Below are positions 3,421 through 18,885 of a stretch of 64,000 nucleotides of DNA, piece after piece. The stretch comes from Fodinibius salicampi. GTDB lineage: Bacteria; Bacteroidota; Rhodothermia; Balneolales; Balneolaceae. Numbering within the stretch: position 1 is the stretch's first letter; each line of letters starts with the position of its first letter. The translations under genes and the position numbers were made by a program. The notes below the pieces were generated by a model, which saw only the letters and a program-made list of their open reading frames with translations, was not told the origin of the DNA and ran no database searches. The stretch is from NCBI RefSeq assembly GCF_039545095.1, contig NZ_BAABRS010000001.1, positions 682,001 to 746,000 of the forward strand. The letters run 5' to 3'.

Positions 3421-3470
3421 TTTATTTTTTTCCTAGTTGAAGAATTGGATTTTTGGGGAAATGCAATGTA

Positions 3471-3582
3471 AGTCCTAAACGCATAATCGGCAGACGCCGG
3501 AGTTTTTAATTATTTGTAAAAGAAAGGTTAGCTAAAAAATGGGGAGCGGGCAAGGCTTGTCCGTTTGAAAAGCGTGTTATAC
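3471..3582 (+). repeat. attC-like recombination site relic, copy 1
   Basis: The core cgcataatcggcagacgcc (3480-3498) is nearly identical to one at 4893-4911; over 22 bp, 19 positions match. The element ends at GTTATAC (3576-3582), which is the exact inverse complement of GTATAAC that opens the second copy (4879-4885), as expected for the R' and R'' ends of an integron attC site. Inside is a small hairpin, GGGCAAG/CTTGTCC (3549-3562). The left end here (CCTAAAC) is degenerate. The next gene, a beta-propeller lipoprotein, would be the cassette. The repeat is seen directly; the attC identity is inference. Confidence 0.45.
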
Positions 3583-4878: not shown

Positions 4879-4914
4879 GTATAACGATCTGGCGCATAAG
4901 GGGCAGGCGCCGGA
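4879..4914 (+). repeat. attC-like site relic, copy 2 (5' arm)
   Basis: Opens with GTATAAC (4879-4885), inverse complement of the end of copy 1, and carries the core cgcataaggggcaggcgcc (4893-4911). It begins 47 bp after the stop of the beta-propeller gene, where a cassette's attC site should lie. The matching right arm is not clearly found: the following 200 bp hold an inverted repeat TTAGTT/AACTAA near 4923-4948, a second TAACGATCTGG at about 5056, and a GTAGC/GCTAC hairpin at 5071-5087. The interval 4833-5128 contains no gene. Confidence 0.4.
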
Positions 4915-5128
4915 ATGTCGAATTAGTTTAAATCGAAAGATTAACTAATAAATGGAAGTGAAGCAAGGTGATGACGAGCCCCCAGTCGTTCAACCCGTAC
5001 GTCTAAAGGGGAGATAGTAAATTAAGCCATGTGTGGGACTTGGGAATTGGCCGGTTAACGATCTGGGATGGTAGCTCCACGTGCTACAGTCTTTGTTGAT
5101 ATAAAATCACAGGCCGATCGTAGTAACT

Positions 5129-14024: not shown

Positions 14025-15248
14025 CTACAGCTTATCAATTTTTCCTAGAATAGTCTGTTTGTCGGTCTGTGTTTTGGCAAGAGACAATGCTTTTTGGAAA
14101 TACTGCTTAGCCTTTTGGGTCTCAGTGTCTTTGTAGAGCTCTCCAAGAAGGGTATAGTAATAATGGTTATCTGTTAATTTCAGTTTCTCGGCTTCGGCAA
14201 TGGCAGCTTCTTTTCCATGTATTTTTGAAAGGGCATACGTTCTGTTGAGTGCCGCAATGGGTGAATATTCCTTAATCAGCAGTTGATTATATAGTTGCAG
14301 AATATTTTTCCATTTTTCTTTGGTGCCTTCCTTATTTGTATGCCACCAGGCAATGCTTGCTTCCAAATGGTATTTAGAGACGTTGTTTCCTTGTGATGCC
14401 TGCTTGAGGTAATAGGCACCTTTTGAAATTAATTTCTCATTCCATAACGTTTCGTCCTGATCCTGATACAAAATAATCGTTCCATAGTCATCTTTTCTGG
14501 CTTCAAACCGAGAAGAGTGAAAGCACATAAGTGCCAGCAGGGCATTTACGGCAGGTCTATTGGTCTGTTCGTTTTCAGCAAGTAAATACGTTAATCGCAT
14601 CGCTTCAAGACACAGGTCCTTTCTCAAGACCAGATCATTGCTTTCTGAATAGTAACCTTCGTTAAAGAGTAAATACAATGTTCTCAATACCGTATCCAAA
14701 CGATTGTCAATTTCGGTTTCGTTAGGCACTTCAATGTCCACGTTCTCTTCTCTCAATTTCTTTCTGGCTCTGTACAGTCGTTTATTAATGGTTTCTTTGT
14801 TGGTTAAAAAGGCATCGGCAATCTCTTCAATGCCGAATCCACAAAGAATCCGAAGTGCCAGTCCGATTTGCGGTTTTTGAGAAATAGAAGGGTGGCAAAC
14901 CGTAAATAGCATCTGAAGCTGACTGTCCGAGATATTTTCATCAGAAAGGTCGATGTTTGCTTCCCTGCTTTTTGGAGCGGCATATTTTATCTGTTTCGAA
15001 ATTTTATTCTGGAAGAGAGCTCTACGATTAAAGTGATTCCGGGCTTTGTTTTTTGCAACCTTTTAAAGCCAGGCGGCAGGATTTTCAGGAACTCCTTTAT
15101 AGCTCCATGATTCTGCGGCTGCTAAAAAGGTCTCACTTGCAATGTCTTCTGCCGTTTCAATGTGAGCGATGCCGAAGCGTTTACAGAGCACAGCCGTAAT
15201 TTTGCTGAATTCTGTTCTGAATAAATGAGGGATGATCTCTTGTTCCAT
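14025..15248 (-). pseudogene. ECF sigma factor (DUF6596/ECF42-like) with one in-frame stop codon
   Basis: From ATG 15248 (MEQEIIPHLFRTEFSKITAV) the sigma region 2 reads normally through EDIASETFLAAAESW and ENPAAWL, then meets TAA at 15063-15065. In the same frame it resumes at once with KVAKNKARNHFNRRALF and continues unbroken to 14025: sigma region 4 (GFGIEEIADAFLTNKETINK), then the long C-terminal helical repeat domain with tetratricopeptide-like order. Family members have Tyr, Phe or similar at the stop position, so a single nonsense base (for example TAC or TAT to TAA) explains it. The full length, about 407 codons, fits ECF42-type sigma factors. It sits beside a DGPF-domain gene, the known partner of this group. 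Confidence 0.85.
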
Positions 15249-15298
15249 CTTAAAAAAATAGCTTCTGCCCTGAACAAGCAGAGCAGAAGCCAAGATTA

Positions 15299-16819: not shown

Positions 16820-17139
16820 TTAGAAAACCGGAACGGGCATTCCCTCATAATACTTATCAGCCGGTGGATTAAATATCTTTTCGATACGTTGGGATTTACG
16901 GTTAATCCAGACTTCAAGAACAGGTGTTTTATTTACTGCCTGAAGCAATATTTCCTGACCGTTAGCCTTGCCATCGGGACCAAAATGTGCCAAAGAAAAA
17001 ATAATTTTGTAGCGACTTTGGTCTTTACTGCTTGGCCACTCATGAGTAGGTACTTTTCCCTCCAGTATAAACATTGGTACCTCTGATACAAAAAGTGAAG
17101 CAGGCATCACATAGTTGATGAACCGTTGATCTTGAGGTT
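16820..17139 (-). pseudogene. 5'-truncated gene, C-terminal fragment, family unknown
   Basis: On the minus strand the frame reads through KPQDQRFINYVMPASLFVSE, MFILEGKVPTHEWPSSKDQS, IIFSLAHFGPDGKANGQEIL and ends VFNPP-like with EGMPVPVF before the stop at 16820. An ATG at 17107 exists, but coding character continues upstream of it to about 17137, where it abruptly stops at the join with the beta-propeller fragment. So the N-terminus has been lost. I do not recognise the family. Confidence 0.6.
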
Positions 17140-17395
17140 TGGGGGAGTGCCTAATTCAACAGCCGATTCATTTACTCCCTTTAGAAAAACTGATTTACAT
17201 ATGGATATGATACAGATCAGAAGTGACGACAATAAACTATCTACTTTGTATCTGGATTCAGAAACTGGTGAATTAATTTATGGAGGCTCTTCTTCAACTA
17301 TACCAGTTTCAAAAAATCAAAATGTCGGAGCCACTATCACATTTCGCGATGATGAGTATCAATCTATGTCAATTCAAACCATTATAATTGAGTAG
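17135..17395 (+). pseudogene. 3' fragment of a second beta-propeller lipoprotein gene
   Basis: About 86 codons closely matching the C-terminus of the protein encoded at 3678-4832. Shared blocks include GGVPNSTAD, STLYLDSETGELI, GGSSS.IPVSK, QNVGATIT and DDEYxSMSIQT; most residues are identical. There is no start codon or signal, and the match ends abruptly at about 17135-17141 in the sequence GGGGGAGTGCC. It is a remnant of a paralogous gene, not a gene of its own. DNA identity continues for a short way past both stops, into the attC-like elements. Confidence 0.88.
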
Positions 17396-17441: not shown

Positions 17442-17578
17442 GGGTAAAGCGGGATGGCATTTAAGCGGCGCAGGGATTATTCTTTCGTAAAAGGCTACAC
17501 ATTTCGACAAATATTGGCAAGAAGCCAAACTAAAGCCGCGTCTGCGTCCGACTTGAAATGCCTAACCTATAATTATAC
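17442..17578 (+). repeat. attC-like imperfect hairpin, copy 3
   Basis: The arms GGCATTTAAGCGGCGCAG (17456-17473) and the complement of 17542-17562 pair over about 18 bases with single unpaired extra bases (C, T, A) on the right arm only. Bulged, extrahelical bases on one arm are a hallmark of folded integron attC sites. Outer ends are degenerate: GGTAAAG on the left and ATTATAC on the right, against GTATAAC/GTTATAC in the other copies. Inside is a hairpin TTGGC-AAGAA-GCCAA (17515-17529). It lies 47 bp after the stop of the beta-propeller fragment, the same spacing as copy 2. The interval 17396-17789 has no gene. Confidence 0.5.
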
Positions 17579-17789
17579 AAACAAGCCAATGTCATAATGA
17601 TATTATCGTGCAAAGACATAGTTTGCTAAAAATACCGTTCAAACACAAAAAACGTATTATGCTGGGATATTATCATGCATAGCGCCCCTTTTTTGTTCAT
17701 ATAACAGATTGACATAATATTTTTTGTAAGGATTGGTCTCTTTTTAGGTCTTACTTAAGAAAACAGACTTAAAATTAACAGGAGGGAAG

Positions 17790-18128
17790 ATGGCAAAATC
17801 AGTATTGCTTAATAAAATGCGTACCGAAATCAGGAGACAAAATTACAGTTATCGTACGGAACAGGCCTATACGAAATGGATTGTTCGGTTTGTGAGATAT
17901 CACCAGCTTAAACATCCGCTTTCGATGGGGGAGGAGGAAGTGGAGACTTATTTGAATTATCTTGCAAATGAACGAAAGGTCTCGGCTGCTACGCAAAACG
18001 AGGCGTTGTCTGCAATACTGTTTCTTTATGAAAAGGTATTAAAACGTCCACTGGGAGAAGGAATGGAATTCCGAAACATTTTAAATTCCCAAAAAGGTCT
18101 TGGAATTTTTAATCAAGGAGCTAAATAA
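17790..18128 (+). pseudogene. Integron-integrase-like tyrosine recombinase, N-terminal domain only
   Basis: 112 codons. Strong ribosome site (AGGAGGGAAG directly before ATG 17790). Residues 7-90 closely follow the SAM-like core-binding domain of integron integrases: YSYRTEQAYTKWIVRFVRYH, LSMGEEEVETYLNYLANER, then KVSAATQNEALSAILFLYEK. After PLGEGMEF the match ends, and the reading stops at TAA 18126. The catalytic domain with Arg, His-x-x-Arg and Tyr, about 200 residues, is absent, so it cannot recombine DNA alone. It lies 210 bp to the right of the third attC-like element, which makes a decayed integron likely. A stand-alone DNA-binding product is the alternative. Confidence 0.75.
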
Positions 18129-18141
18129 CTAGGGGATAAGG

Positions 18142-18885
18142 TTATTTTCGCTTGTCTCTTACATAAATGGCGGCTGCATGTCCGTGGCCGGTGGACCGCT
18201 CTTCTATCTGAAACAGCTTGACGGCTTCTACCAGCTCACCGAGCTTGCGGTAGCCGTAGTTTCGGGGATCGAATTCCGGGGATTGCTTGGCAATATAGCT
18301 GCCAACTTGTCCTAGGTGAGCCCAGCCGCTCTCATCAGAGGAAGCCTCAATGGCATTCCGGATTAGTTTTACGAGCTTGGTATCCTGTTTAAGTTCCCGG
18401 GATGACATCCGGTCAATGGAGGTGCTTTCATCTTTTTCGTCTTCACTTCTGAGGACTTCCGTATAAACAAATTTGTCGCAGGCGGCCACAAAAGGATCAG
18501 GTGTTTTCTTTTCCCCAAAGCCATAAACCGTCAATCCCGATTCCCGGATGCGGGCTGCCAGCTTGGTAAAGTCACTGTCGCTGGTAACCAGGCAAAAACC
18601 GTCAAATTCTTCGGTGTAAAGTAAATCCATGGCATCAATAATCATGGCGCTATCCGTGGCATTCTTACCGGTGGTATAGCCAAACTGCTGGATAGGCTGG
18701 ATAGAATACTGGAGGAGATGTTCCTTCCAGCCCCGGAGTCGGTTCGAGGTCCAGTCGCCGTAAATACGTTTTACACTGGCGGTTCCAAACTTGGCAATTT
18801 CAGCCAGCATCCCCTCAACAATGGAAGGTTGAGCATTATCGGCATCAATAAGGACGGCCAGCTTGTTATTCGGTTCTGTATCCAT
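18142..18885 (-). CDS. NYN-domain ribonuclease-like protein with C-terminal LOTUS/OST-HTH domain
   Basis: 247 residues. The N-terminal PIN-like NYN domain shows its acidic residues: LAVLIDADNAQ (about residue 10-20), NATDSAMIIDAMD (about 77-89) and LVTSDSDFTKLA (about 101-112). The C-terminal 75 residues (LVKLIRNAIEA, then GWAHLGQVGSYIAKQSPEF and YGYRKLGELVEAV) fit a LOTUS/OST-HTH RNA-binding domain. Known: such NYN-LOTUS proteins (LabA-like group) are thought to cut or bind RNA. Substrate unknown. The gene is convergent with the integrase fragment and divergent from pstS. Confidence 0.9.
   Translation of the reverse strand: MDTEPNNKLAVLIDADNAQPSIVEGMLAEIAKFGTASVKRIYGDWTSNRLRGWKEHLLQYSIQPIQQFGYTTGKNATDSAMIIDAMDLLYTEEFDGFCLVTSDSDFTKLAARIRESGLTVYGFGEKKTPDPFVAACDKFVYTEVLRSEDEKDESTSIDRMSSRELKQDTKLVKLIRNAIEASSDESGWAHLGQVGSYIAKQSPEFDPRNYGYRKLGELVEAVKLFQIEERSTGHGHAAAIYVRDKRK

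Follow-up and report, generated by a model that had tools for sequence, protein, structure and literature searches.

Within a 64,000-nucleotide stretch of the genome of Fodinibius salicampi (hereafter, the window), a salt-loving member of the Balneolaceae (genus Fodinibius/Aliifodinibius, Balneolota), the segment at positions 17444–18128 constitutes an integron platform in which only the N-terminal DNA-binding domain of the integrase gene is left. Read along the minus strand, the locus consists of this shortened gene, which is divergently oriented and which we call mini-IntI, followed by an attI site and then an attC site. The mini-IntI gene (17790–18128, plus strand) encodes 112 amino acids, and a ribosome-binding site (AGGAGGG, 17780–17786, plus strand) lies 3 bp upstream of its ATG. 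At its right edge, the integron-derived segment meets a core gene with NYN and OST-HTH/LOTUS domains (18142–18885, minus strand) that was found in all 12 searched genomes of the genus. In the congeners that were inspected, this NYN/LOTUS gene is flanked by an ftsX-like gene and, in most cases, by a pstS-like gene on the opposite side. F. salicampi has kept the pstS side, but no ftsX-like gene turned up in the window, so that the locus was rearranged where the integron-derived segment lies. Two short ORFs to the left of attC, at 17126–17395 (plus strand) and 16820–17110 (minus strand), have no family match, and the first of these, which the initial annotation regarded as a truncated cassette-like gene, is not accompanied by an attC site in its own orientation.

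Profile searches confirmed the proposal that the gene product corresponds only to the N-terminal domain of integron integrases. mini-IntI scores 99 bits against the integron integrase model TIGR02249 (E = 3e-28), with the match confined to profile positions 1–91 of 315, 110.8 bits against PF13495, the N-terminal core-binding domain of IntI (gathering score 27), and 90 bits against PRK15417, as compared with 28 bits or less against the XerA, XerC and XerD models. The protein ends just past the N-domain boundary and has no tyrosine-recombinase catalytic domain, and tblastn found no remnant of an IntI C-terminus near the gene. A programmed frameshift into a hidden catalytic domain was considered and rejected, as no such domain is present at the locus. 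Among solved structures, the integron integrase VchIntIA (2a3v) comes closest, whether the search is made by sequence, with a profile from ten mini proteins (E = 1.2e-21), or by fold (E = 5e-6; TM 0.74 relative to the query and 40% identity). Its N-terminal domain matches mini-IntI, although its entire catalytic domain has no counterpart here. An AlphaFold2 model built from a 20-row alignment (mean pLDDT 82) shows four main helices; block means of pLDDT are at least 90 for residues 11–80, and the tail beyond about residue 90 is of low confidence.

An Rfam scan of the window returned a tRNA as its only match, with no attC, and a strict scan for RYYYAAC...GTTRRRY with ungapped arms gave two sites only. 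Because attC arms bulge, such a scan finds few sites, and we therefore built a covariance model from nine aligned attC sites, taken from the genome's own array and from relatives, with the window left out; an RNAalifold consensus was too short for use alone. The hairpin that had been described as attC-like at 17442–17578 was recovered by this model at 17444–17566 on the minus strand (60.7 bits), with E-values, rough for this model, of 8.5e-13 in a search of 304 kb and 2.3e-14 in one of 8 kb with filters off. Folded as DNA, it exceeds all 200 shuffled sequences in stability (z = -2.8). The site points away from the mini-IntI gene, as in classic integrons, so that the unusual orientation previously ascribed to the locus must be abandoned. 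It abuts and slightly overlaps attI at a gene-free junction, where the attI end GTTAGGC stands in place of its R'' box; the R' box has the sequence GCTTTAC. Lacking consensus R''/R' boxes, this attC is therefore degenerate. Its hairpin core recurs in relatives (about 80% identical), where it mostly has near-consensus R''/R' boxes (e.g., in G010, G028 and G023). The window holds two more attC-like matches, both on the minus strand and about 12–14 kb from the mini-IntI locus, at 4879–4994 (30.0 bits; R' box GTTATAC) and 3466–3582 (15.6 bits).

While the spacing between gene and hairpin had been noted in the initial annotation, its contents, a promoter-like motif and a recognisable attI, had not. 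The attI site (17561–17721, minus strand), which lies beside the integrase-derived gene, was identified by homology to the region preceding the full-length IntI gene of the same genome, and its recombination end, which reads GGTTAGG on the minus strand, is at the low-coordinate end. Further homologues in this genome comprise four orphan copies (L019:7913-8072, L020:7234-7396, L021:7163-7323 and L022:7146-7251) in addition to the leader of the full IntI. In the orientation of the window's plus strand, nearly all copies start with TAACCTATAATTAT, with small changes, L022 being the most altered, and three of the orphan copies diverge from the intI leader at one common place, near CATAATATT. Downstream of three of the four orphan copies we found attC matches in the correct orientation (L019, L020 and, weakly, L021 at 19 bits), and no integrase gene was detected at these three copies; they are possibly platforms served in trans. 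A complete integron, with an IntI scoring 450 bits (cut-off 265), is located on another contig (C5). The genome therefore contains one complete integron, integrase-less attI arrays and the window platform.

The combination of an IntI N-domain, an attC site and an attI homologous to the leader of a full IntI upholds the integron origin first suggested for the locus, which we regard as a real integron-derived locus. It shares order and polarity (integrase-derived gene, attI, attC) with a complete chromosomal integron, and its N-domain, attI and attC are homologous to those of such an integron, but the catalytic domain is missing, the attC is degenerate and the attI–attC interval contains no cassette gene. 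With respect to the In0 and CALIN classes of IntegronFinder (PMC9024848), the window platform is likewise a partial integron, and the orphan attI arrays of this genome resemble CALIN; however, attI together with a gene for a stand-alone DNA-binding domain is a combination that falls outside those classes.

In a first search of 59 relatives, 31 exceeded the curated IntI cut-off, and ORFs encoding only the N-domain recur among them. Integron integrases are thus plentiful in this lineage, from which the initial annotation called integrons rarely described, and F. salicampi itself has a complete integron. In the literature searched, neither integrons of Fodinibius nor attI sites of Balneola-type organisms came up. 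In a later survey of 92 Balneolaceae genomes, 25 encode an intact stand-alone IntI N-domain of about 100–130 amino acids without a catalytic domain, 34 have a full IntI alone, and three have broken mini copies (G011, with a stop codon, G096 and G097). A full IntI was detected in 16 of the 25 genomes with an intact mini gene and not in the other nine, several of which are incomplete assemblies. Fodinibius halophilus and F. salsisoli are among the carriers. Outside the Balneolaceae, a scan of 64 loci revealed no conserved stand-alone N-domain family, the loci having mostly full integrases and a few short fragments. Among the papers listed by the literature search, nothing evident concerned stand-alone integrase N-domains, an absence that is not proof of novelty; the window gene is one of a class of such domains for which we found no description in the literature searched.

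The genomic contexts of these genes recur. Four congeners (G002, G003, G005 and G008) have the mini gene between tadA and a cation-efflux gene, with a C-terminal tail common to all four proteins; in a fifth (G006), it adjoins tadA downstream of a full IntI, and in G004 and G010 it likewise lies downstream of a full IntI. A more divergent family in a second genus consists of intact genes for proteins of 104–110 amino acids, most of which end in the tail EPGxFRITA/G. TIGR02249 is still the best match for these (34–49 bits for the four tested), and their recurring neighbours often include thioesterase-like and acyl-CoA-synthetase-like genes, with no integron genes seen nearby in the stretches read. 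At the conserved mini genes tested, no remnant of an IntI C-terminus was found, with the exception of a 15-amino-acid trace just before the mini gene of G004 (L089:1420-1464), which may be the vestige of a second integrase copy.

Three of these lineages are conserved under purifying selection. By the Nei–Gojobori method, with dS often saturated, dN/dS is 0.07–0.12 in the tadA group where dS is computable, 0.06 between the mini genes of G004 and G010 (0.05 for their full integrases), and 0.06–0.23 among those of the second genus, i.e., about 0.06–0.23 overall. A weakly resolved tree of 105 N-domains (92 columns) nevertheless requires eight changes of the mini label (bootstrap range 7–9), at least two of them forced by well-supported branches, so that the tree does not support one common origin for these genes. 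We read this as recurrent truncation followed by retention in several lineages, whereby stand-alone N-domains would have arisen several times. Since the mini genes do not form one clade, each truncation must be judged on its own. Well-supported groups are the second-genus clade (13 rows, 100/100), the tadA clade and the G004/G010 pair.

Upstream of mini-IntI, 35 bp from the ATG, lies a promoter-like motif, TTGTAAGGATT-N15-CTTAC (17724–17754, plus strand; 16 of 16 positions), which is also found 34 bp upstream of the full IntI of this genome. Allowing up to one mismatch, the F. salicampi genome contains 34 such sites, compared with none for a reversed control pattern. Genes that follow the motif include radC, ssb, a recN-like gene, a comF-like phosphoribosyltransferase gene and genes for an HHH (comEA-like) protein, HU-family proteins and a GIY-YIG protein; at some sites, no nearby downstream gene is evident. 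In G029, a second-genus genome with a mini gene and no full IntI detected, the variant TGTAAGG-N17-TCATAC (20 sites versus none for the control) precedes comEC, comM, recA, radC, Y1-type transposase genes and the mini gene. All 23 mini genes examined are preceded by the motif at 12–16 of 16 positions; 20 of them reach 13 positions, a level attained by none of 101 control ORFs and none of 300 random stretches of the F. salicampi genome. From the content of the genes downstream, we infer a link between the motif and competence, and by its upstream motif the window gene would be a member of a putative Balneolaceae competence/repair regulon, although the motif could simply have been inherited from intI. 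TTGTAAGGATT-N15-CTTAC and the LexA motif published for Balneolaeota, TTACACATATTTTWTACATA (PMC7739468), are different consensus sequences, and control of mini-IntI by LexA is therefore not favoured. Two related 62-amino-acid proteins are also encoded downstream of TTGTAAGGATT-N15-CTTAC (L224:1282-1467, minus strand, and L245:1561-1746, plus strand); one of the two is close to an orphan attI, and the L245 protein has no Pfam match.

Because short genes of this kind are kept under selection in relatives and share a motif with DNA-uptake genes, mini-IntI is probably a reused protein rather than debris. Overall, we lean towards the interpretation that the locus holds a recurrently co-opted, competence-linked DNA-binding domain on a reduced integron platform. 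Retention as a functional protein appears likely for the Balneolaceae family as a whole, and somewhat less so for the window copy itself. The term remnant, which the initial annotation applied to the whole locus, fits the degenerate attC and probably not the gene, considering that such genes are recurrent, syntenic in some species, mostly free of stop codons, under purifying selection in three lineages and associated with a shared motif.

The strongest competing explanation is that the window copy is a recently truncated, decaying intI relic beside an old attI and a worn attC, its frame being open by luck; we consider this less probable, but a serious contender for this single copy. The attC has decayed, with its R boxes lost, and true relics are known in the family: in addition to G011 with its stop codon, G028 is a plain relic in which an internal deletion has left the N-domain followed by the remaining IntI C-terminus. 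Furthermore, no close orthologue of the window gene was found among the relatives searched, so that a recent relic has to be reckoned with for this copy, and its nearest relative is the full IntI of G009 (72–73% identity). The two group together in the tree (81/87), the window gene having an end branch of 0.43 as compared with 0.09 for G009, a length that fits relaxed selection after a recent truncation. On the other hand, the frame and the ribosome-binding site are intact, the promoter-like motif is perfect, and the C-terminal remnant seen in G028 is missing at the window. Selection can be judged for this copy from distant comparisons only: differences from G009 by codon position are 0.22/0.13/0.54, and of 5000 neutral simulations none reached the observed identity and 3% kept an open frame. 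As part of this divergence predates the truncation, and includes time as a full integrase, the simulations are weak evidence here and no proof of selection on the short form.

It is also conceivable, though rather unlikely, that what has been selected is the attI platform, on which the genome's full integrase would act in trans, as on the orphan attI copies, and that the mini protein is left over from intI and serves only as spacer or leader. The integrase-free orphan attI copies that are followed by attC matches are consistent with this, as are their largely coinciding boundaries and the 80–88% identity between them and the window attI over the shared stretch. However, a spacer or leader leaves unexplained both the coding constraint in the conserved mini genes and the second-genus genes, around which no integron gene was seen in the stretches read. 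Finally, derivation from a Xer or phage tyrosine recombinase, with the hairpin an unrelated terminator or repeat, could appeal to a common SAM-like fold and to the weak XerA, XerC and XerD matches, but is refuted by the profile and attC tests, given the lead of more than 60 bits for the IntI models, 2a3v as the best structure, the attC model match (E about 1e-13) and an attI repeat in common with a true intI.

If mini-IntI is a co-opted, competence-linked domain, it would be made during cellular DNA uptake, fold as a four-helix core-binding domain and bind attI, folded attC hairpins or single strands entering the cell, although it could not cleave them. In this way it could dampen or redirect the recombination carried out by full integrases whose genes lie elsewhere in the genome, a role in binding or modulating integron recombination that we propose only tentatively. 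With slightly more assurance, yet still as a conjecture, we suggest that stand-alone domains have repeatedly been carved from intI and kept in a natural-competence regulon as non-catalytic modulators of cassette capture or transformation; the full integrase would belong to the same regulon, tying integrons to DNA uptake without SOS.

SOS control is the best-studied answer to the question of how integrons keep clear of harmful recombination and when they capture cassettes. In Vibrio cholerae, natural transformation induces the integron integrase via SOS and LexA (PMC8946536). Integrase expression appears to be tied to DNA uptake in the Balneolaceae as well, judging from sequence, but by a different wiring, in which intI and mini-IntI would share a non-LexA motif directly with competence genes instead of depending on the SOS route of V. 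cholerae (PMC8946536). The common promoter motif suggests that cassette capture in Balneolaceae may be timed to the arrival of single-stranded DNA, and a conserved, catalytically empty integrase domain co-expressed with competence genes would, if confirmed, represent a new kind of integron control. Fragments annotated as broken intI therefore merit a selection test before they are dismissed.

Elsewhere in the window, two adjacent minus-strand ORFs, at 14025–14912 and 15063–15293, resemble the C- and N-terminal parts, respectively, of a single sigma-factor gene that a frameshift may have split.
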